Positions 917 to 22,284 of a DNA stretch of 37,710 bases are shown here, piece by piece (the first letter of the stretch is position 1; every line of letters begins with the position of its first letter). The notes under the pieces were generated by a model. The model searched no databases. It was not told the origin of the DNA and worked only from the letters and a program-made list of their open reading frames with translations. The stretch comes from Candidatus Omnitrophota bacterium. GTDB taxonomy: Bacteria; Omnitrophota; Gorgyraeia; Gygaellales; Profunditerraquicolaceae. Where the stretch lies: positions 1-37,710 of the forward strand of contig JAPLLV010000072.1 in NCBI GenBank assembly GCA_026387405.1. The letters are read 5' to 3'. The position numbers and the translations under genes are program-made.

Positions 917-1795
917 TCATTTACCCAATCCTTTTAATAATCCGCCTTCCATAAACTGCAGGAAGATCGGCCCGCCGATAACAATGCCGATAACCGGCAA
1001 GATGCAGAAAATAAGCGGGAAGAGTATCTTGATCGGCGCCTGCATGGCGATCCTCTCTCCGCGGTGAAAACGCTGCAAACGCGTGTCTTCGGAAAGTATT
1101 CCAAAGGCCTCGGCAACCGGAGTACCCATGCGGTCTGCCTGCACCAGGGTCTGCACAAAAGAACTCACCTCGGAGATATTCAGCCTGCGGGACATATCCC
1201 TTAAGGCCTGTATGCGCGACTTACCCCACTTGATCTCTTCCAGCACAAATCCCAGCTCTTCAATAAGCGGGTTATTCGGCACCTTTTCCACTACCCAGCG
1301 CACCGCCGTGGTAAAATCCAGGCCTGCCTCCACGCACAGACCCAGCAAGTCCACGGTCTCCGGTAACAGGCGGGCAATGGCGTATTTACGCTGGCCGATC
1401 TTGCGCTTTAGATAAAGATCGGGAAGTATATATCCCAAAGTCACGCCGACCAATAGAATCCATGGCCCGGACTGGCTCACGAATAAAAATGTCAAAAAGC
1501 AAAAACCTGTAATCAATAATAGCTTCAAATTGAAAAATTCCTCTACCGAAAGATGCAGGTGCGCGGCGTCAAGCTTATCCTTCATGGGCTTATCCAGCTT
1601 GAACTTTTCAAGCAGCTTGCGGGAAAAAGGAAATACCTTCTCCAGCCAGGTATGTATGGATCTTCTCTTGACCGGCCGGCCCAGCGCTTCGGGAAGCTTG
1701 ACCCGGGAAATAGTGTAAGTAAATTGCCCGGATATCGCCCAAAGGATAAGGCCAAACCCTCCGATAAGAAACAGAAAAATTACCAGCTCTACCAT
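917..1795 (-). CDS. tadC: TadC, inner-membrane platform protein of the Tad/Flp pilus
   Basis: This 292-residue protein belongs to the type II secretion F (GspF/TadC) family. It has an N-terminal membrane helix (residues 1-22), a helix pair around 95-130, a cytoplasmic F domain (about 135-255) and a C-terminal helix. The F-domain signature is LLPETVDLLGLCVEAGLDFTTA followed by LGFVLEEIKWG and VQTLVQADRMGTPVAEA, typical of TadC. The start is set by AAGGAG five bases before the ATG. TadB and TadC form the membrane platform that works with the TadA ATPase to extrude Flp pilins. The gene follows tadB, separated by a repeat element of about 100 bp. Confidence 0.93.
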   Translation of the reverse strand: MVELVIFLFLIGGFGLILWAISGQFTYTISRVKLPEALGRPVKRRSIHTWLEKVFPFSRKLLEKFKLDKPMKDKLDAAHLHLSVEEFFNLKLLLITGFCFLTFLFVSQSGPWILLVGVTLGYILPDLYLKRKIGQRKYAIARLLPETVDLLGLCVEAGLDFTTAVRWVVEKVPNNPLIEELGFVLEEIKWGKSRIQALRDMSRRLNISEVSSFVQTLVQADRMGTPVAEAFGILSEDTRLQRFHRGERIAMQAPIKILFPLIFCILPVIGIVIGGPIFLQFMEGGLLKGLGK

Positions 1796-1930: not shown

Positions 1931-2779
1931 TCATATTTTTATCTCGCTGAATTTCCGGATCAAGACCATACCCACTACCTGCAAAATAATTGCCACGATC
2001 AAAAGCATCCTTCCTGTCTCGCTCTCAAGCATAATATTGAAATGGTTGCGGTTAAAAGCTATAACCCACCAGACAAAGACAAAGGGGAGCGCAGACATAA
2101 TCACCCCCTGCATCCTGCCCTGAAGGGTGAGGGTGCGGATGGAGTCTTTTAACTTACGGTTGTCGCGAATGGTAGTGGTCAGACGGCTAAAGACCTTGGT
2201 CAGGTCGCCGCCGGTCTCCCTGGCAACCAGTATGGAATTAATCACCATGCTCAACTCGTCCATATTCATACGCTTACCCAAATGCCTAAGACTCTCTTCC
2301 AGAGAAACGCCCATCTTGTTTTCTCTGACCACAAGGCCGATCTCCTGTTGCATAGGCGCGGGCATCTCTTCTTCCAAAACCTCTAAGGCCTGTAGTAAAC
2401 TCAAGCCGCCTTTTAAAGAACTCGAAAGTATCATGATCGCGTCCAATAACTGCCCGTTAAACTGCTGCCTTCTCTTGGTATCGCGCATTTTTAAAACCAG
2501 GTTCGGGACAAAGAATCCCGCCACCACGCCTACTGCCGTCAACAACACCGACTTGAATAACAAGGCTGCTGCCAGGCCAAAGGCGGGAGGCACAATATAA
2601 TAGAGCCGCATGATCTTCTGGGGGCTCTTGTCGTAAAACAGCTTGTCCAGTTCCTTCTCTACCACCTTCTGTCTTTTATCCTGCCAGCTCTTGGCCTTTT
2701 CCAAAACCGGAGGCATAAGCGCCAAGGTCAGCAAGAATAAGGCAGAGCCGACCAATAAAATAACAACTAATAACAACAT
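1931..2779 (-). CDS. tadB: TadB, inner-membrane platform protein of the Tad/Flp pilus
   Basis: This 282-residue protein is of the type II secretion F family. It has an N-terminal helix (about 1-24), a helix pair (about 60-95), the cytoplasmic F domain (LLDAIMILSSSLKGGLSLLQALE, then VINSILVARETGGDLTKVF) and C-terminal helices. The RETGGDL motif is characteristic of TadB. Its ATG directly follows the stop of the upstream gene (TAAATG), with GGGAGG eight bases before the start, so translation is probably coupled. It should pair with TadC as the platform for pilin export powered by the TadA domain encoded at 13020-15191. Confidence 0.93.
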   Translation of the reverse strand: MLLLVVILLVGSALFLLTLALMPPVLEKAKSWQDKRQKVVEKELDKLFYDKSPQKIMRLYYIVPPAFGLAAALLFKSVLLTAVGVVAGFFVPNLVLKMRDTKRRQQFNGQLLDAIMILSSSLKGGLSLLQALEVLEEEMPAPMQQEIGLVVRENKMGVSLEESLRHLGKRMNMDELSMVINSILVARETGGDLTKVFSRLTTTIRDNRKLKDSIRTLTLQGRMQGVIMSALPFVFVWWVIAFNRNHFNIMLESETGRMLLIVAIILQVVGMVLIRKFSEIKI

Positions 2780-3694
2780 TTATTTAACCTCCCTCTTAGG
2801 AAAAGCTATCTCTCTTTGCATATTCCTGGTAATAATGATAAGGGTGCGGCCCAGCGCTTTGGCTTCGTCGGGAAAATTCTTTGGCGTTACCGTGATGTTG
2901 AATAATACCGTGTTATCCCCGCGGTGAAAAAGAAGTATCTGCATATCCTTAAGCATGGGGTTCAGTTTCTGCATCACCTCGGCGCTCAAAGCCCTCTCTT
3001 CCTTCCAGCCGCTGCGCGGCATTTCCTGGCGAAAAAACCGGGCGATATCCCTGGGGGCTGCGTCTGTCTCATAGATTAAATACCCTGCCTGCTGCGGAAA
3101 AAGGACATCTATCCTGCGCCGGCTGCCCGGATAACGCGGCACATCGGCAAAGTCCTTTCCTTGCACATCCGGAGCAATCCGCTCTTTTAAAAAATAGTCC
3201 TTTAAATTCTCACAGATAGCCAGGGAGGCTGGCGAGGCGATCAGATAGACATCGCGCGGATGATTTTCTTTAGCGGGAATTATACCGATATAGATAAATC
3301 TGTCTTTTTTAATAAAAGCGGAAATATCGGGGGTGAGTTTTTTATCATACTTCCAGCCCTGGCCTTCTAACGCATTTTTATAAAAACTGATGATTTTATC
3401 TTCGGATAGGGCCGTTCGTAAATGCGTGGCATTGGCCTTGATCTGGTTTACCTCCATCGGTTGGTCCTTCCAGACCACGGTAGCTTCGGGAAGCTGGGGC
3501 AGCTGCCAGAGGTCCGCGTCCATGGCCAAGGCAGAGGAAATAAAAAAAGCGCTTAAGAAAATTGCCCAAAAAGTCATTGCGAGACTAGCTCTCAACTTCG
3601 TCATTGCGAATCCCCGAAGGGGATGAAGCAATCTCAAAAAAGTGATTGCTTCGCTTCGCTCGCAATGACGATTTATTAAGCTTGATCTATCCAT
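2780..3694 (-). CDS. Exported protein of unknown function with a repeat-derived N-terminal insert
   Basis: The ATG at 3694 has a strong Shine-Dalgarno (AAGGAG, five-base spacer) overlapping the upstream stop codon, so this is probably the real start. Residues 8-40 are translation of a TCATTGCGAG element (for example HCERSEAI and LRASLAMT). A normal signal peptide follows, TFWAIFLSAFFISSALA. The mature part contains two similar modules: a phrase of the type FYKNALEGQGWKYDKK near the middle, and later FFRQEMPRSGWKEER, each preceded by a beta-rich stretch. This suggests an internal duplication. The family is not recognised. The position between tadG-like and tadB genes and TAAATG coupling to tadB suggest a periplasmic or envelope accessory role. 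A secondary start at 3577 would also leave a signal peptide. Confidence 0.82.
   Translation of the reverse strand: MDRSSLINRHCERSEAITFLRLLHPLRGFAMTKLRASLAMTFWAIFLSAFFISSALAMDADLWQLPQLPEATVVWKDQPMEVNQIKANATHLRTALSEDKIISFYKNALEGQGWKYDKKLTPDISAFIKKDRFIYIGIIPAKENHPRDVYLIASPASLAICENLKDYFLKERIAPDVQGKDFADVPRYPGSRRRIDVLFPQQAGYLIYETDAAPRDIARFFRQEMPRSGWKEERALSAEVMQKLNPMLKDMQILLFHRGDNTVLFNITVTPKNFPDEAKALGRTLIIITRNMQREIAFPKREVK
3573..3670. repeat. TCATTGCGAG inverted repeat, copy 3, inside a coding region
   Basis: Two left-arm-like GTCATTGCGA boxes (3573 and 3600) face a right arm CTCGCAATGACG ending at 3670. The element lies wholly within the first 41 codons of the gene at 2780-3694 and keeps its frame open, adding about 33 residues between the start codon and the signal peptide. 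Confidence 0.88.
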
Positions 3695-3703
3695 ATCTGC
3701 TCC

Positions 3704-4816
3704 TTACTGTATCGAAAAATCGTAACCCGACCAGACGCTGCCGCTGATATTCACCCTGCCGGTATGCTGCAGGTAAACTGTCCTGCTAAAAAAGGGAAGC
3801 TTGGTAAAAGGCATCCGTTTATTCAAGATCAGTCCGAAACTGCTGTTAAAATTTACCGAGGCAATCCAGGCAAAAGGAACCGGCATAACTCCGACACCTA
3901 CTCCAACAATGCATGGTGGGCCCCACCAATCATAGGGACAGGGAAACGCCCATATGTAATATAAAAAAACAACTACCATAGGCATAGGGATTATATCCAC
4001 GCTGTCGGGAAAATTGTCAAGCCGCGTCCCAAAATAAGAGCTGTAATCCGGCATAGCGTTCTCGGTTGCCTGAGGCCCAGGTCCAGGGACAAAAGGGATT
4101 TTCATGACCCCGGGAAGGTCACGAGCCTCTGTTATGCCCTTATTAAAAAAATAGGATATGGAATTATTTTGGTACCATCCTCCATTACCAAATTTCAAGG
4201 CGCGGTACTCACAGATGAAACGCGAATCCCGCTGCATATATTTGGGGTAATTCACATAATTGACCACGCCCTTGGCATCCCGGCCTACCTCATTCCAGCC
4301 GATCAAATTCTCTTTCTTACAGGTATCGGTGCCCAGGGGATGCATGACTGTGGCTGGTTCTGAGCTTTCCCGAAAAGGCTTGGGCTCATCTATCAGCGCC
4401 CCGCCTAACGTCGTATCATATACCGAAGCGCGCAGGTCCTTAGGCATCTCATCGGAGAGCGTGCAGGCCTGATCAAAAAGGTTATAATTCTGCTCCTCGG
4501 TCAACGCGGTCCATGCAGCAGCAATGACATACGCATGAATCTTGTCAATAAAGGGGCTGGCCACTAAAAGAGCGGTCTGTAAGGAGATATAATTCAGAAG
4601 CATTTTATTATGCAGGGGACGGATGGAATTTAAGCCGCGGCAGAAAGCCGAAACCCCGGAGATAAGCGCGGAATCGCCGATATTGGCCATGCGCAGGCGC
4701 GCAAAACCGGTCTCGCCGATAATCATGGTCGCGGCAATGGCCAGAATCAGGACCGCCATCACCAGTACCATAAAAGGAGCGATCTGCCCATTCCTATCTC
4801 TTAACAGCATAAACAT
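3704..4816 (-). CDS. TadG-like protein with Tad N-terminal domain
   Basis: The 370-residue protein starts with a short basic segment followed by GQIAPFMVLVMAVLILAIA, the TadE/TadG-type N-terminal membrane helix (Tad domain, putative Flp pilus-assembly TadG-like). The usual Glu at +5 after the Gly of true pilins is absent, so processing by a prepilin peptidase is doubtful. The rest is periplasmic or extracellular and rich in aromatic residues, Pro and Gly, with Cys pairs, but no von Willebrand A domain is evident. AAAGGA precedes the start. It lies 11 bases after the large prepilin-like gene and 9 bases before the exported protein gene, so all belong to one transcription unit. Confidence 0.8.
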   Translation of the reverse strand: MFMLLRDRNGQIAPFMVLVMAVLILAIAATMIIGETGFARLRMANIGDSALISGVSAFCRGLNSIRPLHNKMLLNYISLQTALLVASPFIDKIHAYVIAAAWTALTEEQNYNLFDQACTLSDEMPKDLRASVYDTTLGGALIDEPKPFRESSEPATVMHPLGTDTCKKENLIGWNEVGRDAKGVVNYVNYPKYMQRDSRFICEYRALKFGNGGWYQNNSISYFFNKGITEARDLPGVMKIPFVPGPGPQATENAMPDYSSYFGTRLDNFPDSVDIIPMPMVVVFLYYIWAFPCPYDWWGPPCIVGVGVGVMPVPFAWIASVNFNSSFGLILNKRMPFTKLPFFSRTVYLQHTGRVNISGSVWSGYDFSIQ

Positions 4817-4827
4817 TTATTTGTCCT

Positions 4828-7356
4828 TTATATTGCGCCGCGCACCACAATCTTCGTACCACTATCATAATGACAATCCGTAACCCTATAAAGGGCCCGG
4901 ATATCGAGACGCGCCGAACTAAGCCCTTGGGCGCGCTTTACCTGTATCGCCCGTATGTCCAGGATCTTTTGGCTCTCGTCGGAAGTCAGGCCTTCCCCTC
5001 CTTGATTCGCAGGACCATTAAGTATCCCCGCAAGAGTTACCGGATTATAAATATCTGCTATTCTTGATATGATGTCCTGTATCACTATTGCCCGTTGCCC
5101 ATCGTCTGCCGGGAATCTCGAGGGGTCAGCATCATGAAGCTTTGCGGAATCTTTTGCCTCATTATCCCAATCTTTTAACGCCCCGTCAAGCCTGTTCTTA
5201 AGCCTCTCGGCTAAGCCGTTTAAAAGCGGATGCGTATCCACTAATTCAGGCCAAGACTGGGGGTCATCAACCGCTTCCTTGGTGAGAGACAAAAGCGTGC
5301 TCTGCGCCAATTGCACAGAGATCTTTATCGCCAGCGCCCCCTTCTCCGGCAAGAATCCGTATATCGTTTCTATCTGGCCGGATAAGTATTTTGAAAATAT
5401 CAAACGTTCGCCATTTGCAAAACTATCGTCCGCTGTCAGCCTATATAATAAGTAGATAATTGACTGGGCTTTGCGCAGGCTGCTATTTTTAAGCTCAAGA
5501 TAATCTATGATCAACGTCTTATCTTCAAGCTCTATTGTTGCGCTGTGGGCATCATTATCGGCGCTAGTAATCTTGCACTCCCACCCTCGGCTGGTATATG
5601 CCGCATCTCCTTCCTTCATCTCCGGTATCGGTACTCCATCGTCAACCTTGGCCAGTTTTATTACCGCGGTAGAAGTGGAGGTAACCGAAGTAATACTGCC
5701 CTTGCCTTCTTGGCCGACATATATTTCTTCCTCACCCTCCAACTGCCGCTCTACTGTGACGATATGTATAGAAGTATCGACACTAATAACCTTTTCTCTC
5801 CCCTCGCCGGTATAGATGAATTCTCCCACCAGCGGCGGACTATTATCATTCCACCTGGCTATGGCTTGCGTAAGATTCCCCGCCAGTTCATCCACGGGAG
5901 GCTTAAGCTGACTCAAGCCCAAGACATTAAACTTTACGGATACCATATCCGCGTTATTTTTGGCGTTAGTGGCATCGTCTAAGCTGATATTGCCGACTTC
6001 CTGAGCAGAATAGCTATTACCGTAAATTTTACCGTATATATCTTTTATCAGGGCCTTAGTGCCGGAATCCAAGGATATCGACGAGCCAGAGGTTGTCTGT
6101 AAGCCGACTTGTCCCACATACTTGATTAAGGACTTTAAGAACCCTCCTACTGCGGCGTTGTGTGCCGTGAAAGAGGGTTGCCAATAAGTCCAACAACCCC
6201 CGCGATTACAGTTATACGTTGGCCAGTTGGGATCAGGTTTGGCAAAAGTATCATTTATATGACCAAAGGCCCCCTGTAACCCATATCTCACTATATAACT
6301 GTCTGGATTATTCAAATCTACCGGCATACGGCTATCGCCGTTTATGAGACGTTTTAAACCGCCGGCGTAAGCAGTCTGCAAGGCAATAATAGTGCTTTTG
6401 ATCTGCTCGCGGTTATTCAAATTTTGCGCCTTGATATCCTTAAGCCTATCCCTGTTCACTTGAGTATCTTCCAAACCGTAAACTGCCAACTGGGGGTCAG
6501 GGTTAAATGGGCCGGGATTCTTGAGCACAGGGGAATCTGCCGGGACCGGGGGAAGCGAAACGCCGTCTTTAATCGCATAGCTTCCCGGAGGATCATAACC
6601 CAGCGCCTCTTTAAAACTATCAATCGCCTTGCCAAAATCGGTATAAGCCTGATTAACCAGGGTCCTGCTATCTATCACTAAAGTCTGCACCAAAGGAATA
6701 TACTCAAAATGAGTCCAATTAACCATCAAAAAGGGATTATTGTAAGAGATATCGCTGCCATTACCGCTATAATCGGCCCACGTTGCCGTAGTCCAATGAT
6801 ACTTCCTCCAATCGGAATATTTAGTTGATTGGAGGACCTGCTGTACCGAAGGATCGGACCACCTCCCTCGACTGCCCGAACCCTGTAACGGAAACCCGGG
6901 ATACCATTGGGAGCCATTCTGCGAATATTGTAATGGATAGTAATACCATTTACCGTAATCAGCGGTAGTCGTAACCTGGCTGGCAAGATAATAGGCCTGA
7001 TTAATCTTATAAGGCAGTATCACATTTATAATATCGTTTTCTTCCTCTAAAAGCCGGGAGGCCTCAAATATGTATGGATCTTGCAGAAAAGCGACATCGA
7101 ATCCGGGGTTAAAACCCGTGACGGGAGTAGGCGTGTATGTATAATCGAACAAAAACTTAAGCGGGTCCGGGCCTGCGTTATTAAAGGCGTCCAAGCGGCT
7201 GCTCCGGTAGTGGTCAATGCGAGTGGTCATATTCAGGTTAAGATTAGAGAATATGCGCATCGAAACCACGGCAAAGGTAGCCAGGCTGATGATTACCAGC
7301 GCGGCCTCCAGAATGACCTGGCCGCTTTTATCAGCGTTTGGGGTTATACGTAACAA
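4828..7356 (-). CDS. Very large prepilin-like Tad-locus protein (842 aa)
   Basis: The start is TTG at 7356, ten bases after AAGGAGG inside the end of the upstream gene (26-base overlap). The N-terminus reads DKSG^QVILEAALVIISLATFA: a Gly before the cut site, Glu at +5 and a hydrophobic helix, as in TadE-like pseudopilins. More than 800 residues follow, many Tyr, Trp, Asn and Pro in the first half (Trp-rich around 125-215), then a beta-rich segment (about 510-620) and helical stretches to the end. Typical TadE proteins have under 250 residues, so this looks like a pseudopilin with a large passenger, perhaps a tip or adhesive subunit. That role is inference. The family of the passenger is not recognised. 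Confidence 0.83.
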   Translation of the reverse strand: MLRITPNADKSGQVILEAALVIISLATFAVVSMRIFSNLNLNMTTRIDHYRSSRLDAFNNAGPDPLKFLFDYTYTPTPVTGFNPGFDVAFLQDPYIFEASRLLEEENDIINVILPYKINQAYYLASQVTTTADYGKWYYYPLQYSQNGSQWYPGFPLQGSGSRGRWSDPSVQQVLQSTKYSDWRKYHWTTATWADYSGNGSDISYNNPFLMVNWTHFEYIPLVQTLVIDSRTLVNQAYTDFGKAIDSFKEALGYDPPGSYAIKDGVSLPPVPADSPVLKNPGPFNPDPQLAVYGLEDTQVNRDRLKDIKAQNLNNREQIKSTIIALQTAYAGGLKRLINGDSRMPVDLNNPDSYIVRYGLQGAFGHINDTFAKPDPNWPTYNCNRGGCWTYWQPSFTAHNAAVGGFLKSLIKYVGQVGLQTTSGSSISLDSGTKALIKDIYGKIYGNSYSAQEVGNISLDDATNAKNNADMVSVKFNVLGLSQLKPPVDELAGNLTQAIARWNDNSPPLVGEFIYTGEGREKVISVDTSIHIVTVERQLEGEEEIYVGQEGKGSITSVTSTSTAVIKLAKVDDGVPIPEMKEGDAAYTSRGWECKITSADNDAHSATIELEDKTLIIDYLELKNSSLRKAQSIIYLLYRLTADDSFANGERLIFSKYLSGQIETIYGFLPEKGALAIKISVQLAQSTLLSLTKEAVDDPQSWPELVDTHPLLNGLAERLKNRLDGALKDWDNEAKDSAKLHDADPSRFPADDGQRAIVIQDIISRIADIYNPVTLAGILNGPANQGGEGLTSDESQKILDIRAIQVKRAQGLSSARLDIRALYRVTDCHYDSGTKIVVRGAI

Positions 7357-8173
7357 CGGTCTTATCCCTCCTTAAGGTCTCGTTAAAATTCAAAACTATT
7401 TCCGGCGGTATATTTCTTATAGGTATAGCATCAGGATTGCCGATCTTGCCGTCCCAGTTATCATTTTTATAGTTCTGCCTGATCTTGTCCGCAGATTGAA
7501 AGGTGATGGCCAGGGGGATCTTATCATCGCTTACGTTTTCTCTCTCTGTCTTCTTATAACCCTGCTCTGGCATTTGGCCAGCGGTTATATAATTCGGGTT
7601 TTCAGTTGCTTTTATAGTGGATGAATAATAAGAAGTCCGGGGTTCTACTTTATTCTGAAGGGCTAATTCTCCAGCCGGCTTGTCTTGAGGATCAATCTCC
7701 TCTACCGCAGAGGTCCCCCATCGCGGGCCGTCCCCCGAACCCGTATCCACCAAGGTAGGGGGTATCTCCAGGAAATACCCTTGCTGATTATTCCCTAAAA
7801 TCATCGCGTCATTGACCTGTAATAATTGCAGACTGGCGACATCCTGAGGGTCTGACTGTTTGGCATCCCAGATTATCCAGGGGTTATACTCTACAATACT
7901 GGTAGACATCAGCCTCTGACGGCTAAGCCCGGTAAAAAAAGAAGGGGTGATCACGTCCCTTATCACTGTAAGGTTGATACCCCTTTCTTGCTGCTTGCTT
8001 AATTGCAAGGCCTTTCTGAAGGTATACATCTCCAGGGCCTGGCGGTTATTGTACAAAAATCCCTGGGAGACAAGATAGCTCAAAAGCATAAGCACTATCG
8101 CTCCCATTATTGCCAATTCCGCAGTAGCCTGCCCTTTATTCCTAAGGGGCCTCCTCGGGTGTAACATTTTCAT
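7331..8173 (-). CDS. Prepilin/TadE-like protein (280 aa)
   Basis: The start is the ATG at 8173, supported by AAGGTGGGG about six bases upstream. A longer frame reaching 8266 would overlap the preceding pilin gene much more. The N-terminus has RNKG^QATAELAIMGAIVLMLLSYLV: Gly before the cleavage point, Glu at +5 and a single hydrophobic helix. The C-terminal 220 residues are polar, with many Pro, Asp and Asn, and presumably exposed. It overlaps the upstream pilin gene by 32 bases and the downstream 842-residue gene by 26 bases, so the three are translationally linked. It is best viewed as a mid-size minor pilin or TadE homologue; the exact role is unknown. Confidence 0.83.
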   Translation of the reverse strand: MKMLHPRRPLRNKGQATAELAIMGAIVLMLLSYLVSQGFLYNNRQALEMYTFRKALQLSKQQERGINLTVIRDVITPSFFTGLSRQRLMSTSIVEYNPWIIWDAKQSDPQDVASLQLLQVNDAMILGNNQQGYFLEIPPTLVDTGSGDGPRWGTSAVEEIDPQDKPAGELALQNKVEPRTSYYSSTIKATENPNYITAGQMPEQGYKKTERENVSDDKIPLAITFQSADKIRQNYKNDNWDGKIGNPDAIPIRNIPPEIVLNFNETLRRDKTVVTYNPKR

Positions 8174-8492
8174 ATCCCCACCTTGTGGTTTGTTCGCCTT
8201 TATGCTCTTTACCCGACGCATCGGTCCAGTTCTCCGGAATCGCGCTATTAGTAATGCCGTTATCATAACCTTGGGTGAGATTGCCTATTTGCTCGGTAGT
8301 ATAAAATGATGTGGTCCGGCCCGGCTCATAATGATAGACGCTGAGCTGGTCGGATAAATTGCGTATCCTGCCCTGCAGGCCGCGTTTTACGTACACCTGC
8401 ATGGCGATCAACGCCGCTGCCATGACGGCCAAGAGCACAGCATACTCTGCTGTGCTCTGGCCTATGGATTTGCGGAGAATTCTTTTTTTCAT
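8142..8492 (-). CDS. Flp-type prepilin (116 aa)
   Basis: The N-terminus is KSIG^QSTAEYAVLLAVMAAALIA, the classic Flp/Fap prepilin motif with Gly at -1, Glu-Tyr at +5/+6 and a hydrophobic helix. It is followed by the phrase MQVYVKRGLQGRIRN shared with its neighbours. The remaining 70 residues are polar with no cysteines. Typical Flp pilins have only 50-70 residues; this one has an added exposed tail. AAGG precedes the ATG. It is one of eight consecutive prepilin genes below the c-di-GMP riboswitch. Cleavage after Gly11 by a TadV/CpaA-type peptidase is expected, but that gene is not in the window. Confidence 0.9.
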   Translation of the reverse strand: MKKRILRKSIGQSTAEYAVLLAVMAAALIAMQVYVKRGLQGRIRNLSDQLSVYHYEPGRTTSFYTTEQIGNLTQGYDNGITNSAIPENWTDASGKEHKGEQTTRWGYENVTPEEAP

Positions 8493-8504
8493 AGAATACT
8501 TGCC

Positions 8505-8891
8505 TTATTGAGCTGTGGATTGGGCTTGCTTGCCCCAGTATTCTCCGTAGCTGCCATAACCTTCTATCTTTTCTGTGCCGGTCTTATCCTGCGACTGAAG
8601 GCTGTTGGTAGTAGTCTTACCACCGGGAATGGCTGGATCTATTCCAGCATCAGACCCTCCTTCGCGAGGAGCTACGGTCTCGTCAGAATGTATAGTGGTA
8701 GTTGTGGTATAGTCATACTTGCTGGCTCCGGGGGAGAATTGCGCCCCGATATCATCGGACGACTGCTTAAACCTTCCCTGGATGCCTCTTTTGATATATA
8801 CCTGGGTGGCAAGCAACGCGCCTACGATAACGGCGATCACTACCGCATATTCCAAGGTACTCTGACCTCTTTTAGTTAGATGGATAAACAT
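8505..8891 (-). CDS. Flp-type prepilin (128 aa)
   Basis: The leader TKRG^QSTLEYAVVIAVIVGALLA is a textbook Flp prepilin start with Glu-Tyr at +5/+6. The helix ends in TQVYIKRGIQGRFKQ, closely matching the pilins at 8142-8492 and 8922-9377, so these are tandem paralogues. The C-terminal half is Thr, Ser and Gly rich (DYTTTTTIHSDE and similar) and probably exposed or glycosylatable; the latter is inference. A strong AAGGAGGTG lies seven bases before the ATG, among the best ribosome sites in the locus, suggesting high expression. Confidence 0.9.
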   Translation of the reverse strand: MFIHLTKRGQSTLEYAVVIAVIVGALLATQVYIKRGIQGRFKQSSDDIGAQFSPGASKYDYTTTTTIHSDETVAPREGGSDAGIDPAIPGGKTTTNSLQSQDKTGTEKIEGYGSYGEYWGKQAQSTAQ

Positions 8892-8921: not shown

Positions 8922-9377
8922 TTAGTCTGTTTGAGGCAATGGTGTAGACACTGCAGGTGCCGCGGGTTTATCAGGCACTGTGGTGGGTGTGACATCGTCT
9001 GTTGGAACCGCTGCCAGGTCGTCACCTGTCCAACCCGTAACCTGTTGGCGGGCCTGTTTGGTCTGTTCACCTGAACCCCTACCCACTTCTCCTTTGCCGC
9101 CTAAAACCTCCTGCTCTGAACTCTGGCGTCCACTTAAAGATGAGGAAGAAGTATAGTAAGGTTCGTACTGCCTGCCGGTAAAGCCGAAGTTGCTTTCTCC
9201 TATTGGTTGCTCATTAGCATCAGCTTTTATACCCACGTGATCCACCACATTCTTGATCCTTTCTTGCATGCCGCGTCTTATATATACCTGCATTGCTACA
9301 ACCGCTCCTACTACAATAGCAATAAGAATGGCATATTCCGCTGTTGTCTGCGCTCTCTTGTTTAACTTAGGTAACAT
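8922..9377 (-). CDS. Flp-type prepilin with long Pro/Thr/Gln-rich tail (151 aa)
   Basis: The leader is LNKRA^QTTAEYAILIAIVVGAVVA: the -1 residue is Ala rather than Gly, which prepilin peptidases accept in some families, and Glu-Tyr is in place. The motif MQVYIRRGMQERIKN follows the helix as in the sister genes. The tail, about 100 residues, is low-complexity: Ser-rich around 75-90, Gly/Glu-rich, and ending in a Pro/Thr/Ala segment. AAGGAGGTG is placed nine bases before the ATG. It is the longest of the small pilins and may be a minor or surface-modified subunit; that is inference. Confidence 0.88.
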   Translation of the reverse strand: MLPKLNKRAQTTAEYAILIAIVVGAVVAMQVYIRRGMQERIKNVVDHVGIKADANEQPIGESNFGFTGRQYEPYYTSSSSLSGRQSSEQEVLGGKGEVGRGSGEQTKQARQQVTGWTGDDLAAVPTDDVTPTTVPDKPAAPAVSTPLPQTD

Positions 9378-9406: not shown

Positions 9407-9601
9407 TTATTTGGTTACTCCTGAGGTTGCGGGAGTATAGTCGATCTTGTTCACCTGTACTTCCATCTGTTTTGTTACGCTCTCCAACGAATTCTGGGTG
9501 TGTGTTTTTAACATCCCCCCTGCGACTATGATGACCACCGCGATGATAGCAGTTAACACGATCACGTACTCCAGGGTTGACTGACCCTTGCTTGATAACA
9601 T
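9407..9601 (-). CDS. Short Flp-type prepilin (64 aa)
   Basis: Starting at the ATG at 9601, eight bases after AGGGGG, the protein begins MLSSKG^QSTLEYVIVLTAIIAVVIIVAGG. A GTG three codons upstream is possible but sits directly on the Shine-Dalgarno. At 64 residues it has the length of a classical major Flp pilin, and unlike the neighbours it has no long tail and lacks the QVYxxRG phrase. This makes it the best candidate for the major pilin subunit, although expression data would be needed to know. Confidence 0.9.
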   Translation of the reverse strand: MLSSKGQSTLEYVIVLTAIIAVVIIVAGGMLKTHTQNSLESVTKQMEVQVNKIDYTPATSGVTK

Positions 9602-9627
9602 ATTTTTCACCCCCTCTCTTTTTCTGT

Positions 9628-9825
9628 TTATTTTGCCTCTGTAACATTTTGTATCATGACTCCCGGGTTGACTTCCAGCTCGATGTTGTGCAGCCGGGCA
9701 TTTACCGCCCGTCGGATATACAGATTCATAGTAATGAATGCCGAAGCCACCGTAATGATGAGCAGCGTGTATTCCAATACGCTTTGGCCTCTGGCTTTAA
9801 TCCTGCCCGTGTTTGGCTTTATCAT
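9628..9825 (-). CDS. Short Flp-type prepilin (65 aa)
   Basis: The leader is RIKARG^QSVLEYTLLIITVASAFIT with Glu-Tyr at +5/+6, followed by MNLYIRRAVNARLHN, a divergent version of the motif in the longer pilins. The protein ends about 30 residues after the helix, so it is of standard Flp length. Its ATG overlaps the stop of the upstream prepilin gene in an ATGA, indicating coupled translation; AAGGA lies close upstream. The leader peptide is 13 residues long. Confidence 0.88.
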   Translation of the reverse strand: MIKPNTGRIKARGQSVLEYTLLIITVASAFITMNLYIRRAVNARLHNIELEVNPGVMIQNVTEAK

Positions 9826-10217
9826 TTGTCCTTCCAGTCCGTTAATTTAATAAGTTTGGACCCGCCTTGCCAGACATCGAGAAGCTGGACATTGGTTGAA
9901 CCTGCCCCGGAAACCAGATCTAAACTGCCTATGTCGGTGCCGGTTACGACGGTGCGTATGCCAAGCGTGGGGTTTTCAATACTGATATTCCCCACCTTTA
10001 TGCCGGAATCAGACGTCTTAACATATTCTGCGCTTGACCCGGGGTCAATCGCTTCGTCATCAGGCGGATTAAACTGCTCATCGGAGAAACTATCGGCATT
10101 GCCGCGCCAATGCCCCTGGAGCGCTCCCCGAAAATACCTTTCCGAGACCAGGAGCGCCGCTGCCGCCAGGGCGATCAACACACATACTTCCAGAGTAATC
10201 ATGCCGCTTTTCCCCAT
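9822..10217 (-). CDS. Prepilin-like protein with atypical cut site (131 aa)
   Basis: The chosen ATG at 10217 has GGAG six bases upstream and comes just after the stop of the first pilin gene (TAAGATG). The N-terminus is MGKSG^MITLEVCVLIALAAAALLV: Gly at -1 and Glu at +5 are kept, but Met replaces the usual Gln at +1 and there is no Tyr at +6. A short basic motif follows (YFRGALQGHWRGN), and then about 90 polar residues, Asp and Ser rich, predicted mostly beta. It is probably a minor pilin or pseudopilin of the same system. Confidence 0.83.
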   Translation of the reverse strand: MGKSGMITLEVCVLIALAAAALLVSERYFRGALQGHWRGNADSFSDEQFNPPDDEAIDPGSSAEYVKTSDSGIKVGNISIENPTLGIRTVVTGTDIGSLDLVSGAGSTNVQLLDVWQGGSKLIKLTDWKDK

Positions 10218-10218
10218 C

Positions 10219-10449
10219 TTATCTCCAATCAGCAATGTGCTCGATACTACCGTTGGTCGCATCCTGAAAAACCTGGACCAATCTCATCATCACCGGGCGC
10301 CCTACCTTATGCGCCGCGCTGAGGTTATTTTCATAGCCGGGGTTGAAGCCTCCGCAAACTATAACTATCCCGACTAGCAAAACCGCAAATATCACCACAT
10401 ATTCGGTTATGGCCTGGGCTGAAGATTTTAAATTCTTTTTTAATCTCAT
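10219..10449 (-). CDS. First prepilin of the riboswitch-controlled array (76 aa)
   Basis: The ATG at 10449 is preceded by GAGGAG with a six-base spacer; this Shine-Dalgarno directly abuts the T-run of the riboswitch terminator. The leader is NLKSSA^QAITEYVVIFAVLLVGIVIVCGG, with Ala at -1 and Glu-Tyr at +5/+6. The tail is short (about 40 residues) with motif RPVMMRLVQVFQDAT. A longer frame would start inside the terminator and is unlikely. As the gene nearest the switch, it is the first to respond to ligand. Confidence 0.9.
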   Translation of the reverse strand: MRLKKNLKSSAQAITEYVVIFAVLLVGIVIVCGGFNPGYENNLSAAHKVGRPVMMRLVQVFQDATNGSIEHIADWR

Positions 10450-10460
10450 TAAAAACTCCT

Positions 10461-10513
10461 CAAAAAAATAAAGCCGGGTTACCAATTTGCTTTCGGCTTT
10501 CGGTAACCCGGCT
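10461..10513 (-). terminator. Intrinsic terminator that is the expression platform of the riboswitch
   Basis: On the minus strand a perfect 12-bp stem, AGCCGGGTTACC (10513-10502) with GGTAACCCGGCT (10483-10472), encloses an 18-base loop. It is followed by TTATTTTTTT. The 5' arm is the conserved 3' end of the c-di-GMP aptamer, so aptamer folding and terminator folding exclude each other: ligand binding should permit read-through (ON switch). Confidence 0.92.
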
Positions 10514-10625
10514 AACGTTCTCGCTTATCGACCCAATAGGAGAAGAAAAAAATAAAATTGCATTTGGGCGAGCATCGTTCCGTGGCTTTGCGCCTCCACC
10601 CCCTCCAGGGTAGATTTGCCTTTTC
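10499..10625 (-). ncRNA. c-di-GMP-I (GEMM) riboswitch aptamer upstream of the pilin array
   Basis: Read on the minus strand, the three conserved blocks of the GEMM-I aptamer occur in order: GGCAAAUC (10620-10613), GCGCAAAGCCACGG (about 10593-10580) and GUUAGCCGGGUUACCG (about 10515-10500). Between the first two, UCUACCC pairs with GGGUGGA to form P2. Between the last two, AACG and CUCGC pair with GCGAG and CGUU to form P3, which here carries an extra A/U-rich extension. The usual GNRA loop on P2 is not obvious, and I could not assign P1 with certainty. Family knowledge: such aptamers bind c-di-GMP, and variants bind 3',3'-cGAMP; the bases I can align do not favour the variant. The terminator overlap predicts activation by ligand. 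Confidence 0.9.
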
Positions 10626-10693
10626 GTTGCCGCCTGCCCCTTTTCGGGCTTGCCTCGCCAACGTCTTACTGGCGGGCTTTCATTTCCGCTCAA

Positions 10694-10722
10694 AATATAA
10701 CATTTAATTATAGTGCTGTCAA
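10694..10722 (-). promoter_or_regulatory. Sigma70-type promoter for the riboswitch-pilin operon
   Basis: TTGACA (10722-10717), a 17-base spacer and TATATT (10699-10694) form a near-consensus promoter. Transcription would start around 10687-10690, leaving about 65 bases of leader before the conserved aptamer core. The leader can form small GC-rich hairpins whose role is unclear. Confidence 0.82.
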
Positions 10723-10759
10723 GGCTATTTTAGTCAACGCGGGAAACCGCTTTCTTGAA

Positions 10760-10835
10760 CTAGTCATTGCGAGGGCGATAGCCCGAAGCAATCTCAAAAA
10801 GCGGGATTGCTTCTCCTTCGGCTCGCAATGACTAG
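10760..10835. repeat. TCATTGCGAG inverted repeat, copy 4
   Basis: The ends are CTAGTCATTGCGAG and its exact complement CTCGCAATGACTAG, with inner GAAGCAATC/GATTGCTTC boxes. It fills the space between the HTH gene's stop codon and the pilin promoter, and could act as a terminator-like hairpin for the HTH gene, although no T-run follows. With the promoter and riboswitch it accounts for the whole gene-free stretch 10450-10837. Confidence 0.9.
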
Positions 10836-12999: not shown

Positions 13000-13052
13000 A
13001 AACCCCGTTACACCCCGCCCTACAGGGGACTTTCTGGGCGTAACGGGGTAAA
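13000..13052. repeat. CCCCGTTAC inverted repeat spanning the 3' end of the TadZ-TadA gene
   Basis: ACCCCGTTAC plus GCCC on the left pairs with GGGCGTAACGGGGT on the right, with a bulge. The last nine or so codons and the stop of the TadZ-TadA gene (PLRPESPL) are encoded by this element, which may also act as a 3' hairpin. Confidence 0.7.
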
Positions 13053-15191
13053 TATATTTTCGGGCAAATTAATACCTTTGATCCTGATTTCTTCGGCAAA
13101 GGTAGGCACGTAACCGGTGGCCTGGTAATACCCCAGGGTATTACCTTTTTTATCCACTCCGGTCTGTTTAAAACTGAAGATATCTTTTAAATCAATGTGC
13201 AGCTCATCTTTCATGCCGGCGATCTCGGTGACCTGGGTGATCTTGCGGGAGCCGTCAGTGAGCCTGACGGTGTGCACGATCACATCCACCGCAGAGGCGA
13301 TCATTTCGCGTATGGCCCTGATGGGAAGCTCGATCCCGGCCATCAAGATCATGGAATCCAGGCGCGACAGGACGTCGTGGGTGGAATTAGCGTGGATAGT
13401 GGTCATGGAACCATCGTGGCCGGTGTTCATTGCCTGGAGCATATCCAGGGTCTCGATGCCGCGGCACTCGCCGATGATTATCCTGTCCGGGCGCATCCTC
13501 AGGGTATTGCGGAAAATGTCTCTGATGGTAATAGCGCCCTTGCCTTCTATATTGGGCATGCGCGCCTCCAGCCTTACCCAGTGGTCCTGATTCAATTTGA
13601 GTTCCGCCGCGTCCTCGATAGTGATTATGCGTTCGTTCTCGGGGATAAATCCGGACAGGACATTTAAAACGGTGGTCTTTCCTGAACCGGTCCCTCCCGA
13701 AACGATTATATTCTTGCGCGAAATCACGCAGGCCTTGATAAAATCCGCCATCGGCGCACTCAAGCTATTCATCGCCACCAACTCATTGATGGTAAACCTC
13801 TCCTTGCGGAATTTCCTGATGGTCAGGGCCGGGCCGGTCAGGGAGAGCGGATGTATGATAGCGTTGACGCGCGAGCCATCCGGCAGGCGCGCGTCCACCA
13901 TCGGGACAGACTCGTCAATCCTCCTGCCGATGGGAGCAATGATGCGTTCGATTATTATCTTGACCTGCTCATTGGAAATGAATTTCTTGCTGGTCAATTC
14001 TATTTTGCCGTGCCGCTCGACGAACACCTCATTTTTATTATTCACCATGATATCCGTGACATCTTCATCTGCCAACAGGTCTTCCAAGGGCCCTAACCCC
14101 AGCGCCTCTTCAATGATCTCCTTCACTAATTTTCTGCGCACCTCCTGCGAGGAGATAAAACTGCCTGCCTCTTCGGCCAATAGATTTGCCACCAATAACT
14201 CGGCGCGGTTTTTTAGCTCCTTGGTCTTCTGCGCGTCGCTGAATACCTTGAGGTCCAGGCGTTTGAGGTTCAACTGTTCTATCAGGCGATTGTGGATGCG
14301 GCGTTTTAACAAAAGTATCTCGTCTTTGTCTTCGCTGGCAAGGGGATGTTCCAGGGTCTCGGATAAACCTTCTTCCTCCCAGAATTCCCCGCCCTTGGCT
14401 AAGGCCGCGTCCTTGAGCTTGATCTGGTCTATCTCTTTATGCTCCACGTAGAGTTTATTTTCTTCCACCAGATCATGAGCCAATCTCTTAATCTCCAGGG
14501 AAATCTTGCTCTTGGGGCTATCGATCACCACGGGGATCCCGCGGTTAACCGCCTGGCCGACGATCCTTCCCTCGGATGGGATACGAGAGATAAGGTCAAC
14601 GGGCAGGCTCACCCGGATCTCCTGCCAGCTGATACTGGCTGCGGATTCCGAACGATTTAAGACTGCCCTGATCATGGAAAGCGGAAAATGCAAAAATTGC
14701 AGGGTATCCAGCACCCACTTGGTCTGGTATATAGAGAGTATGTCCGGGGTAACCACCAGCAGGATCAGGCTCGCCTGGTTCAGGGCGGCGACAAAGACCT
14801 CGGTAAAGGTCTTTCCGGCATCGACGATTATATAGTCGTAATTATTATGCAGGAGATTGAATACGTCTTTGATGCGATCCGGCTCCAGGTGGGGCGACTG
14901 CTGCGGCCTTAAGACACCGGGGAGAAAATCAATCCCGTGTGAATTATGTGTCAGGAAACCCTCTGTGGTAAACGCCTCGGGCTGGATGTGCATGAGGTTG
15001 ATTATATCTACCATCGCCCTTTGCGGGGACAGGTCCAGCATCCTGGCCATGTCTCCGACGGTACTTAGGTCCAGGTCGATAAGACAGACCTTCTTTGCCT
15101 CCTCCTTGGCCAGGCTTACTGCCAGGTTAGCGGCGATCAGGGTTTTGCCGGTGCCGCCTTTACTGCTTAATAATACGATTATTCTGGCCAT
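13020..15191 (-). CDS. TadZ-TadA fusion: MinD/ParA-type ATPase joined to Tad secretion ATPase
   Basis: One uninterrupted 723-residue frame holds two normally separate Tad proteins. Residues 1-240 are a TadZ/CpaE-type ATPase: deviant Walker A KGGTGKT (11-17), CLIDLDLSTVGD, and DYIIVDAGK as the Walker B region. The receiver-like domain found at the N-terminus of many CpaE proteins is missing. A charged linker (about 245-300) leads to a CpaF/TadA-type ATPase: Walker A GGTGSGKTT (499-507), Asp box ITIEDAAEL, Walker B RIIIGECRG (570-578) and His box GHDGSMTTIHANS (591-603). TadA powers pilin extrusion; TadZ places the complex at the pole. The fusion ties location and motor 1:1. The last residues derive from a repeat. 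It starts two bases after the secretin gene's stop. Confidence 0.95.
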   Translation of the reverse strand: MARIIVLLSSKGGTGKTLIAANLAVSLAKEEAKKVCLIDLDLSTVGDMARMLDLSPQRAMVDIINLMHIQPEAFTTEGFLTHNSHGIDFLPGVLRPQQSPHLEPDRIKDVFNLLHNNYDYIIVDAGKTFTEVFVAALNQASLILLVVTPDILSIYQTKWVLDTLQFLHFPLSMIRAVLNRSESAASISWQEIRVSLPVDLISRIPSEGRIVGQAVNRGIPVVIDSPKSKISLEIKRLAHDLVEENKLYVEHKEIDQIKLKDAALAKGGEFWEEEGLSETLEHPLASEDKDEILLLKRRIHNRLIEQLNLKRLDLKVFSDAQKTKELKNRAELLVANLLAEEAGSFISSQEVRRKLVKEIIEEALGLGPLEDLLADEDVTDIMVNNKNEVFVERHGKIELTSKKFISNEQVKIIIERIIAPIGRRIDESVPMVDARLPDGSRVNAIIHPLSLTGPALTIRKFRKERFTINELVAMNSLSAPMADFIKACVISRKNIIVSGGTGSGKTTVLNVLSGFIPENERIITIEDAAELKLNQDHWVRLEARMPNIEGKGAITIRDIFRNTLRMRPDRIIIGECRGIETLDMLQAMNTGHDGSMTTIHANSTHDVLSRLDSMILMAGIELPIRAIREMIASAVDVIVHTVRLTDGSRKITQVTEIAGMKDELHIDLKDIFSFKQTGVDKKGNTLGYYQATGYVPTFAEEIRIKGINLPENIFTPLRPESPL

Positions 15192-15193
15192 GG

Positions 15194-16852
15194 TTAATCC
15201 AAGCGATAGGCTATGGGCACATCTATCCAGAGATCTTTCTGGGCCAGGCTGGAGGGGAAGGGGGGATAAAAGGCAACTGTCTTGGCCACATACATGGCGT
15301 TATCATCAAGGACCTTGTATCCGGATGACGATTTCACCGCCACATTTAAGAGCTCGCCCAGATACGACAGGTGCAGGCTGAGTTTCACTGTGCCCTGAAA
15401 ACCCGCTTCTCTGGCGTACGCGGGATAATTCAGGTTATCCAAGATACGTTTCTGCACGATGCGGGCATACCCTTCTTGCGGTTGAGAGAGGCCTTTATCT
15501 CCGGCAGCCTCGGCTGATTCGCTCTTCCCCGCTTGGCCCGGGGCATTTTCTTCCTGGGCCGCGGCATTGAGATTGGTTACTATAGTAGGCGTAAGGGTGA
15601 CAAAAAGCTCGGTGTTACCTTTTGTTCCGTATCCTCCGCCGAGGCTGGTAACCCTTTTCCTAAACATGATACCTATGATAGGGATATCCCCGAAAAATGG
15701 CACCTTAGTGATAGCCTCTTCTTCTTTTCGTTTCATCAGGCCGCCGATGGCCAGGGTCTGGCTGTTGTTTACAAATACCTCCGTGGAAACCGTGCGCTTG
15801 GTAAGAGGGTAGGCCTTGGCAGTGGGGGCATTGGCTGCCCCGATGACATCCGCGGTTCCCGCTTCGCTTACCTCTACATTTAAAACCAATTTTATCCTGT
15901 TCTCTTCGGTCACCGTGGGTTTTATCTTTAGTTTAATCCCGTATTCTTTATAATCTACGGAGGTGGAGCTAGCGGTGCTACCCTGTACCGAAGTGGTAAT
16001 CACCGGTTTTTCTCCTCCCACCAATAACTCCGCCTCCTTGCCGCTCTGGCAGGCCAGGCTGGGCCGGGAAAGCACGCGCGCCTTGCCTTCCTGCACTAAA
16101 GCATCCAGCGTCCAGGCAAATGCGTCGCGCTTAAGATTTAAAACCTTAAACAGGTATTGCATTTTAGTGCCTGTGCCTGGAGTAGTAAGCGCAGGCGAGC
16201 CTGTTTCAGTAATAGTAATACTGTTCGGCCAGGTAAAACCCAGGGTATTGGTAGCGTCCTTATCCAACTCCAACACCTGCACCTCGATATCCACCACCGC
16301 CTCTTCCTCTTTGACCTGCACCAGGTCAAGGGATTTATCCCTCAATGTCCCGATAGCCATCTCGATCCTGTCTTTTTCAGCCTGTGTCTTAACCGTTCCC
16401 AGGATCAGGACCTTACCTTCCTCATCTTCTGCCTGGGTGTAGACGCTGGGCATCTGGAGCCTGGACAACAGTTTGTCGATGCGGCGCTTGATATCCTGCA
16501 TATTCTGTTCAAAGACCTTTACCGTATAGGCCTGCTCGCCAAAATTGTCCCAGATCACCAGCGTAGTCGAGCCTGCGGCCTTGGCAGAGACAGTGATCTC
16601 CGTCTTCTTGGTATCGGTGACATCGGCAACAGAAGGGTTTCCCAGGGCTATGCGGGTGGGATTATTCACCGGCAGGATCTTGATATCGCCTACGTATAGT
16701 TTGAGCTCCTCCTCAACATCATCGCTGGCAGGGCAATTGGCAAAAAAAACGCATGACGCAAGACACATAACGCATAACGAAAAAGATACTGATGTTAAGC
16801 GCCATGCGTTGTGCGTTTTGCGATATGCGATATGCGATATGCGATTAGCCAT
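15194..16852 (-). CDS. cpaC: Tad secretin (CpaC/RcpA) with a C-terminal TonB domain
   Basis: Residues 48-115 form the pilus-formation N-terminal domain (LKLYVGDIKILPVNNPTRIALGN), and 116-175 a BON-like region. Residues about 240-425 are the secretin beta-barrel region ending in the signature ELFVTLTPTIV. After a Gln/Glu/Ala-rich linker (430-460), residues 462-552 match the TonB C-terminal fold: ILDNLNYPAYAREAGFQG, then VKSSSGYKVLDDNAM and FYPPFP. Secretin plus TonB-C in one chain is unusual. The start ATG lies in a 45-bp segment identical to one at 35742-35786. Residues 1-13 (MANRISHIAYRKT) and much of the hydrophobic signal segment are encoded by heptamer repeats. GGAG lies five bases before the ATG. 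The protein should form the outer-membrane pore for the pilus. Confidence 0.92.
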   Translation of the reverse strand: MANRISHIAYRKTHNAWRLTSVSFSLCVMCLASCVFFANCPASDDVEEELKLYVGDIKILPVNNPTRIALGNPSVADVTDTKKTEITVSAKAAGSTTLVIWDNFGEQAYTVKVFEQNMQDIKRRIDKLLSRLQMPSVYTQAEDEEGKVLILGTVKTQAEKDRIEMAIGTLRDKSLDLVQVKEEEAVVDIEVQVLELDKDATNTLGFTWPNSITITETGSPALTTPGTGTKMQYLFKVLNLKRDAFAWTLDALVQEGKARVLSRPSLACQSGKEAELLVGGEKPVITTSVQGSTASSTSVDYKEYGIKLKIKPTVTEENRIKLVLNVEVSEAGTADVIGAANAPTAKAYPLTKRTVSTEVFVNNSQTLAIGGLMKRKEEEAITKVPFFGDIPIIGIMFRKRVTSLGGGYGTKGNTELFVTLTPTIVTNLNAAAQEENAPGQAGKSESAEAAGDKGLSQPQEGYARIVQKRILDNLNYPAYAREAGFQGTVKLSLHLSYLGELLNVAVKSSSGYKVLDDNAMYVAKTVAFYPPFPSSLAQKDLWIDVPIAYRLD

Positions 16853-16866: not shown

Positions 16867-17769
16867 CTAATGGGATAAGGTTGACTTTCCTTTTGTCGAC
16901 CCGCGGTAGATCTCAACATAACCCTCATCGGGGGCGGGTTCTTTATCTTTCTTGTTTTCCTTTTCCGCCTGAACCGGAACTTTCTCTTTAGGCATGATAT
17001 ATTGAAGCAGGGTATCCCAACTCGCAGGAGCTATGGGCTCTATCTGGGAATCTCCCGGCGAACGCAGCACCAAACGCAGTTTCCCCTGCTCTTGGACAAA
17101 AGCCAGGAGGCTTGACTCTTGAGGCGTAAGGGCCACGGTTACCGGCGGGTTGGCTTCCTGCGCCTCTTCCTTCTTGCCGGAACTCCCCCCTGTTTCACGC
17201 CCCACTGCCAAGACCAATACATTCTGGAACAAAGGGATCACCGCTATCTGCGAGGCCTGTTTTCCGTCGGGAGTCTGCACCGGCACAGGAAGCAAGGCGA
17301 TGATATCCGTGTAGTCTCCCACTTTAAGCATCCCTAATAGCGAAGAAGAAACGGCGTCTACTGAAATGGTAATGGCGCGTTTCCCCACCGGAGTAAGTTC
17401 CGCGAGGGCTCCGGAGCGCCGCTGAAAGGTAAGCTTGCTTAAGGTGATCTGTTCGCCTTTGGAAATAGGGGCTACGGTGATCATACCGGCAATACGGTCC
17501 AAAGAGGTCACTGCCTGCGGCTGGACAAATCTGTTAGGCACAATCGCTATCTCCAGGCTTTCCGGGGGAACCGTTACGCCTTTAGGAATATCCTGTTTTG
17601 CTACCAACACCGAAGCCTGATTCGCCTGCTGCGACTGAATGGCCTCGTTGGCCCTCTCTACGGCCTGTTGACGCTGCTGGTCAATATATACCTTGACCAT
17701 CATTATGCCGATGATCGCCAAGACCACCCCGGCTATCAGGATAATCTTTTGCTTCGGTATCTGCAGCAC
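16867..17769 (-). CDS. cpaB: CpaB/RcpC, Flp pilus assembly protein with SAF domain
   Basis: The 300-residue protein has an N-terminal membrane anchor (residues 8-27, IILIAGVVLAIIGIMMVKVY) and a SAF domain (ASVLVAKQDIPKGVTVPPESLE, then RIAGMITVAPISKGEQITLSKL). It continues with the CpaB/RcpC core (GKRAITISVDAVSSSLLGMLKVGDYTDIIALL) and ends in a charged Lys/Glu tail. Family members sit in the periplasm and are thought to help assemble or gate the secretin. The start is GTG, overlapping the TAG stop of the upstream lipoprotein gene by one base (TAGTG). The secretin gene follows 14 bases later, matching the usual cpaB-cpaC order. Confidence 0.93.
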   Translation of the reverse strand: MLQIPKQKIILIAGVVLAIIGIMMVKVYIDQQRQQAVERANEAIQSQQANQASVLVAKQDIPKGVTVPPESLEIAIVPNRFVQPQAVTSLDRIAGMITVAPISKGEQITLSKLTFQRRSGALAELTPVGKRAITISVDAVSSSLLGMLKVGDYTDIIALLPVPVQTPDGKQASQIAVIPLFQNVLVLAVGRETGGSSGKKEEAQEANPPVTVALTPQESSLLAFVQEQGKLRLVLRSPGDSQIEPIAPASWDTLLQYIMPKEKVPVQAEKENKKDKEPAPDEGYVEIYRGSTKGKSTLSH

Positions 17770-19398: not shown

Positions 19399-19537
19399 AG
19401 GTTATTTTTAGCTCAATTTTAAATAATATAGCATACTTACCGACCGGGTCAATCAATTTCTGCAGCGCGCTTTCGTATGAAATTGATACTAAGGCGGCAC
19501 GCGGAAGATTCATATGCGCCGCGAACGTATAATTTTA

Positions 19538-19567
19538 TTGACCCTGGCGCGGATATGGGTATATACT
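19538..19567 (+). promoter_or_regulatory. Promoter for the FIST-kinase-regulator operon
   Basis: TTGACC (19538-19543), an 18-base spacer and TATACT (19562-19567) are present. The predicted start (about 19574) is almost at the chosen ATG (19576), implying a nearly leaderless transcript; no Shine-Dalgarno lies before that ATG. Confidence 0.55.
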
Positions 19568-19575
19568 ATTCTCCT

Positions 19576-20772: not shown

Positions 20773-20776
20773 AGGG

Positions 20777-22273: not shown

Positions 22274-22284
22274 AGATAAAAACC

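Follow-up and report, generated by a model that had tools for sequence, protein, structure and literature searches.

It is very likely that a GEMM-I riboswitch acts as a transcriptional ON switch for the Tad/Flp prepilin operon of an Omnitrophota bacterium, and the arrangement suggests that direct RNA sensing of c-di-GMP decides whether these bacteria grow pili. The switch lies in a stretch of 37,710 nucleotides (contig JAPLLV010000072.1), here called the window. Without c-di-GMP, the terminator would form and transcription would stop; with c-di-GMP bound, the aptamer would hold AGCCGGGTTACC, the terminator could not form and the prepilin array would be transcribed. The Omnitrophota are mostly uncultured, very small, suspected predators or symbionts with Tad pili and giant proteins. 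If the proposal is true, a known second messenger is linked to attachment in organisms beyond present manipulation. That c-di-GMP riboswitches occur before type IV pilin genes was known previously; what is new here is a conserved GEMM-I variant before Tad prepilins.

The riboswitch in the window

Promoter, aptamer, terminator, Shine-Dalgarno sequence and first prepilin gene follow one another on the minus strand in the order given by the original prediction (Table 1). In a covariance search against all 4227 Rfam families, which had been proposed as a check, RF01051 matched 10499-10630(-) with 51.4 bits (E 2.3e-7; gathering score 35). According to the RF01051 alignment the ligand-contact positions are intact, namely G10620, A10589 (intercalating) and C10503, corresponding to positions 20, 47 and 92 in the Vc2 numbering. 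Score, contact nucleotides and predicted structure place the element in GEMM-I, and as far as the sequence can tell both this family assignment and the Tad/Flp targets had been named correctly. The element shares with RF01051 and the Vc2 type of Vibrio cholerae the core sequence, the three-way junction, the specificity G, the ligand-pairing C and both P2 and P3, but differs in its GGAGG P2 loop and in its P3, which is extended to some 80 nt and carries a GGGUC hairpin. It thus departs from GEMM-I in the tetraloop-receptor contact, as the loop is UGGAGG and not a GNRA tetraloop of P2 docking into a P3 receptor; this contact is usual but not universal, and was not taken as defining.

Table 1. 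Features of the Tad locus and its leader, with positions in the window
Feature	Position	Strand	Basis or remark
FIST sensor - histidine kinase - REC-GGDEF operon	19477-23217	+	adjoins Tad locus
CpaB/RcpC	16867-17769	-	TIGR03177 above cut-off
Secretin (RcpA type)	15194-16852	-	TonB_C domain at C-terminus
TadA ATPase fused to MinD/CpaE-like N-terminus	13020-15191	-	upstream of switch
Promoter TTGACA-17-TATATT, extended -10 (TG)	10694-10722	-	sigma-70-like; 11/12 consensus matches
GEMM-I aptamer including P1, 139 nt	10494-10632	-	Rfam match
P1 stem	CGGC 10632-10629 with GCCG 10497-10494	-	
Ligand-specificity base (position 20 of Vc2), G, c-di-GMP type	10620	-	RF01051 alignment
P2 hairpin, loop UGGAGG in place of GNRA	10595-10614	-	GGAGG 10606-10602
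P3 with long extension	10502-10587	-	stem CUCGC/GCGAG, GGGUC motif; conserved 3' end AGCCGGGTTACC
Intrinsic terminator, 12-bp perfect stem	10472-10513	-	U-tract 10471-10462
Shine-Dalgarno GAGGAG of first prepilin gene	10456-10461	-	ATG 10449-10447
Prepilin 1 (SAQAITEYVV)	10219-10449	-	motif
Prepilin-like gene 2 (GMITLEVC)	9822-10217	-	motif
Prepilin 3 (GQSVLEY)	9628-9825	-	motif
Prepilin 4 (GQSTLEY)	9407-9610	-	motif
Prepilin 5 (AQTTAEY)	8922-9377	-	Pfam Class_IIIsignal just below cut-off
Prepilin 6 (GQSTLEY)	8505-8891	-	motif
Prepilin 7 (GQSTAEY)	8142-8492	-	motif
Prepilin-like gene 8 (GQATAELAI)	7331-8173	-	motif
TadE/TadG-like protein, 842 aa (GQVILEAALV)	4828-7356	-	motif and position only
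TadG-like protein, GQIAPFM motif (GQIAPFMVLVMAV)	3704-4816	-	motif and position only
TadB/TadC-type inner membrane protein (T2SSF)	1931-2779	-	PF00482, 73.4 bits
TadB/TadC-type inner membrane protein (T2SSF)	917-1795	-	PF00482, 59 bits

In the terminator, AGCCGGGTTACC (10513-10502) pairs with GGTAACCCGGCT (10483-10472), followed by TTTATTTTTTT, and the stem has a folding energy of -25.4 kcal/mol. With a loop above the 8-nt limit of that method, it escaped a scan for consensus terminators. Within the aptamer, AGCCGGGTTACC supplies the 3' strand of the P3 base together with the ACC, the C of which presumably pairs with the ligand as is established for Vc2. The nucleotides that make up the 5' arm of the terminator (10502-10513) thus serve in the aptamer as the 3' strand of P3, the shared strand on which the original prediction was built, and c-di-GMP binding should therefore turn transcription ON. 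This predicted logic, in which the bound aptamer keeps hold of the terminator arm, agrees with the sequence and with the comparative evidence. The predicted minimum free energy structure of the unbound RNA (-39.6) is not the GEMM fold, which reached -37.2 with the GEMM pairs enforced, and folding may thus depend on ligand and transcription.

In an OFF switch, like the class I switches of Clostridioides difficile, bound ligand would favour termination; we consider this very improbable here. Class I switches do act in both directions in other species (PMC6366702), but here the terminator 5' arm is inside the aptamer, so that the RNA cannot form the terminator and the bound aptamer at once, and the window leader shows no separate anti-terminator. 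The overlap of aptamer and terminator also recurs in relatives in two different forms, with the arm beginning at AGCCGGG (the form in the window) or at ACCGAAAGCC, which consists of the ligand-pairing ACC and the P1 3' strand. In both forms terminator and bound aptamer are mutually exclusive, and an ON switch is therefore predicted.

A conserved leader subtype

A covariance model built from four Tad leaders was searched in 108 genomes of the same family (f1), where it found 25 strong leaders of 73-159 bits, with the remaining matches at 63 bits or below. Prepilin genes follow every one of the 25. The P2 loop is GGAGG, not GNRA, in all f1 leaders examined, and a P3 extension with GGGUC or GGUC is found in nearly all of them. 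Thus, the extended P3 and the lack of a GNRA loop, originally listed as departures from the consensus, are real but not peculiar to this RNA, since they are conserved in f1. Together they define a Tad-leader subtype that is conserved across genera.

Pair counts were made on 24 of the leaders, in an alignment that was fitted to the tested structure and so favours it: 97.9% of cells were paired, double-change cells numbered 72 (19.9 in shuffles), and the covariation score was 0.405, with the controls far off (0.135 shuffled, at most 0.085 slid). Compensatory changes occurred at 10 pairs, and P2 had double changes at 7/7 pairs. The P3 helices were 97-98% paired. Support was weaker for the P3 distal hairpin, where swapped stems reached the score of its own stem in 1/2000 shuffles with relatedness ignored. 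P1 shows little variation in f1 but has compensatory pairs in relatives (for example GCGGA/UCCGC, UGGU/ACCA, UUGAC/GUCAA and GAGAC/GUCUC, from rows with a correctly placed anchor).

The GGAGG loop could also be a Shine-Dalgarno sequence inside the aptamer, so that ribosome binding or a short leader ORF, and not the ligand alone, sets termination. The loop usually lies 5-7 nt before an AUG in the f1 leaders, and two leaders in which the ligand core is lost (L041, L042) keep a GGGAGG hairpin followed by AUG. However, neither the window nor some nine of the relatives have the AUG, several of the frames end within 6-15 codons, and in other families (L130-L132) the same AUG accompanies P2 loops that are not GGAGG, making a peptide function unlikely; overall, we regard control by the ribosome as improbable. 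A leader peptide starting from AUGCGCAAAGCC after GGAGG was rejected for the same missing AUG and short frames. CsrA binding at the GGAGG loop was likewise rejected, as no CsrA was found in the bacterium's own genome (92.9% complete), and so was kissing of the GGAGG and GGGUC loops, which are not complementary. GGAGG and GGGUC are not strictly coupled, since L127 has GGGUC together with a GUAA P2 loop.

We hold it possible, if somewhat doubtful, that these leaders are a distinct GEMM-I subclass in which the GGAGG P2 loop and the GGGUC P3 hairpin replace the tetraloop-receptor contact and give either a second input (ribosome or other factor) or a new tertiary contact, with the ligand base drifting among genera from G towards A or C. 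The redesigned aptamer is a natural test of GEMM-I working without the tetraloop-receptor contact, and the Tad leaders also offer a test of ligand-specificity drift at one base.

Leaders across the phylum

The leader model was searched in 384 Omnitrophota genomes. Related leaders that the model recognised stand before prepilin arrays in some ten families of the phylum (f1, f2, f4, f5, f6, f8, f26, f36, f37 and f40). Outside f1, 17 of the 50 examined model matches were Tad leaders, a sample that is selected by the model and not unbiased. Among the leaders read, f1 and f8 are the only families with a GGAGG loop. A promoter of the window type is also found 5' of most Tad leaders in relatives; the statement on promoters and terminators leaves out a few divergent leaders.

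In some relatives the switch appears to have decayed. The aptamer is reduced to fragments in L041, L042 and L055, the promoter alone is kept in L043, L045, L046 and L058, and in genus g13 the specificity base (here A) and the ACC have both changed. Such relatives would fit a reading in which the window leader is a relic, a constitutive attenuator that has lost ligand binding. However, the contact positions are kept in the window, its score exceeds the Rfam cut-off (in a comparison of 13 relatives, 7 exceeded it too, and several are below it or missed), and P2 is under compensatory selection, so that we consider a relic extremely improbable. A separate Tad leader (L059, 6224-6293) has P3 nearly deleted and keeps the promoter, a P2-like hairpin and the terminator.

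Ligand and local signalling

Enzymes that make cGAMP have Ser at a particular position of the GGDEF domain (the Hypr rule). The bacterium's own genome (metagenome-assembled, 1.92 Mb) has six GGDEF domains, and those with the active site read have Asp at this position. Sensing of a different cyclic dinucleotide (3',3'-cGAMP or c-di-AMP) by the aptamer, or promiscuous sensing, is decidedly unlikely. The specificity base is A in eight orthologous leaders and C in two, with G in most others, and A here marks the cGAMP switches of GEMM-Ib (PMC6456294), but the window has G, together with the C in the ligand-pairing ACC, and its own GGDEFs read carry Asp and not the Hypr Ser. The GGDEFs read in three genomes with A at position 20 (G011, G005, G038) all have Asp as well. 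Three g13 genomes (L197, L200, L201) each have one GGDEF with Asn for Asp (GHLVGNDAL).

c-di-GMP is thus the most likely ligand, and the FIST-kinase-REC-GGDEF operon next to the Tad locus is an attractive candidate for the source of the signal. Counterparts of this operon lie upstream of TadA at 11 related loci, 10 of which have the REC-GGDEF gene (70-81% identity). The motif of the neighbouring REC-GGDEF is the non-standard GGDDF, which makes its activity uncertain.

Genes downstream and upstream of the leader

Q-x3-E motifs, or sequences close to them, in eight small genes confirm the claim of at least eight prepilin genes, and the two T2SSF genes downstream on the same strand fit tadB/tadC as probable targets. 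Pfam and NCBIfam searches gave no match for the 842-aa TadE/TadG-like protein or for the TadG-like protein. One secreted protein is also encoded downstream of the leader on the strand of the pilin array. The full Tad/Flp set is present (TadA ATPase, CpaB/RcpC, secretin, TadB/TadC and small prepilins), and since CpaB/RcpC, secretin and TadA lie 5' of the promoter, the switch would govern just that half of the locus which holds the pilin and TadB/TadC genes. For TadA, TIGR03819 was the best match but below cut-off (341.6 vs 373), and its best relatives among named genomes belong to Candidatus Omnitrophota. A protein of 513 aa, whose HTH N-terminus is transposase-like, is encoded between TadA and the leader and is present in most related loci.

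An inverted repeat, CATTGCGAGC...GCTCGCAATGAC, lies upstream of the promoter at 10757-10823 and is probably a mobile palindromic element. The ORF at 2780-3694 begins with a CATTGCGAGC-type stretch (CACTGCGAGC-like, reading HCERSEAI).

Comparison with known systems

The nearest functional parallel is the c-di-GMP-II riboswitch before pilA1 in C. difficile, an ON switch in which c-di-GMP prevents termination (PMC6366702). Ligand-prevented termination ahead of pilin genes is common to both (predicted in the window), but the C. difficile aptamer is of an unrelated class and serves a Gram-positive type IVa-like pilus, not Tad/Flp. In Geobacter, GEMM-Ib (cGAMP) riboswitches lie upstream of pilus-assembly and cytochrome genes, expression of the targets drops when the cGAMP synthase is deleted, indicating ON behaviour, and A20G converts a cGAMP aptamer to c-di-GMP (PMC6456294). 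The aptamer superfamily and the pilus-assembly targets are as in the window; in contrast, the Geobacter switches bind cGAMP and have A as their specificity base, and no Tad prepilin arrays are described in PMC6456294. The class I switch Bc2 of Bacillus thuringiensis is a GEMM-I ON switch by transcription read-through of an adhesion gene (PMC6366702), although its target is a collagen adhesion protein and not pili. Tad and giant ORFs of Omnitrophota, the phylum and gene systems of the window, have been proposed as predation or symbiosis traits (PMC10066038). In that paper, the main Omnitrophota survey discussing Tad, c-di-GMP, GGDEF and riboswitch appear nowhere in the text. Our literature search, which covered open-licence papers, found no paper on GEMM-I control of Tad/Flp pili.

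Other GEMM-I copies

The bacterium's own genome has seven GEMM-I matches, one of them just under cut-off. GEMM-I copies were also observed directly 5' of giant ORFs (L234, L235, L248, L245, L239, L240, L244 and, in the own genome, L236 at G000:C14:5210-5305 and downstream). One of these ORFs has 4,919 aa, others are still open after 4,477 to 6,624 codons, and several have a common N-terminal motif, FKSSFKSWIRVVAFIV..FLPEQVAQAV. Together with the Tad leaders, this suggests that in many Omnitrophota families the supply of pilins is controlled through RNA sensing of c-di-GMP, as are giant-protein genes in some genomes.

A further GEMM-I subtype, with a GAAA loop and a GCCGATAAAGG start (L077, L080, L084, L086, L087, L096 and own L001), precedes genes of proteins that start with FLWGAATSAHQVEG and resemble family 1 glycosidases. 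In the own genome, another GEMM-I copy (L004, G000:C21) is followed by a response-regulator gene and a PilZ-like gene, a possible feedback in c-di-GMP signalling.
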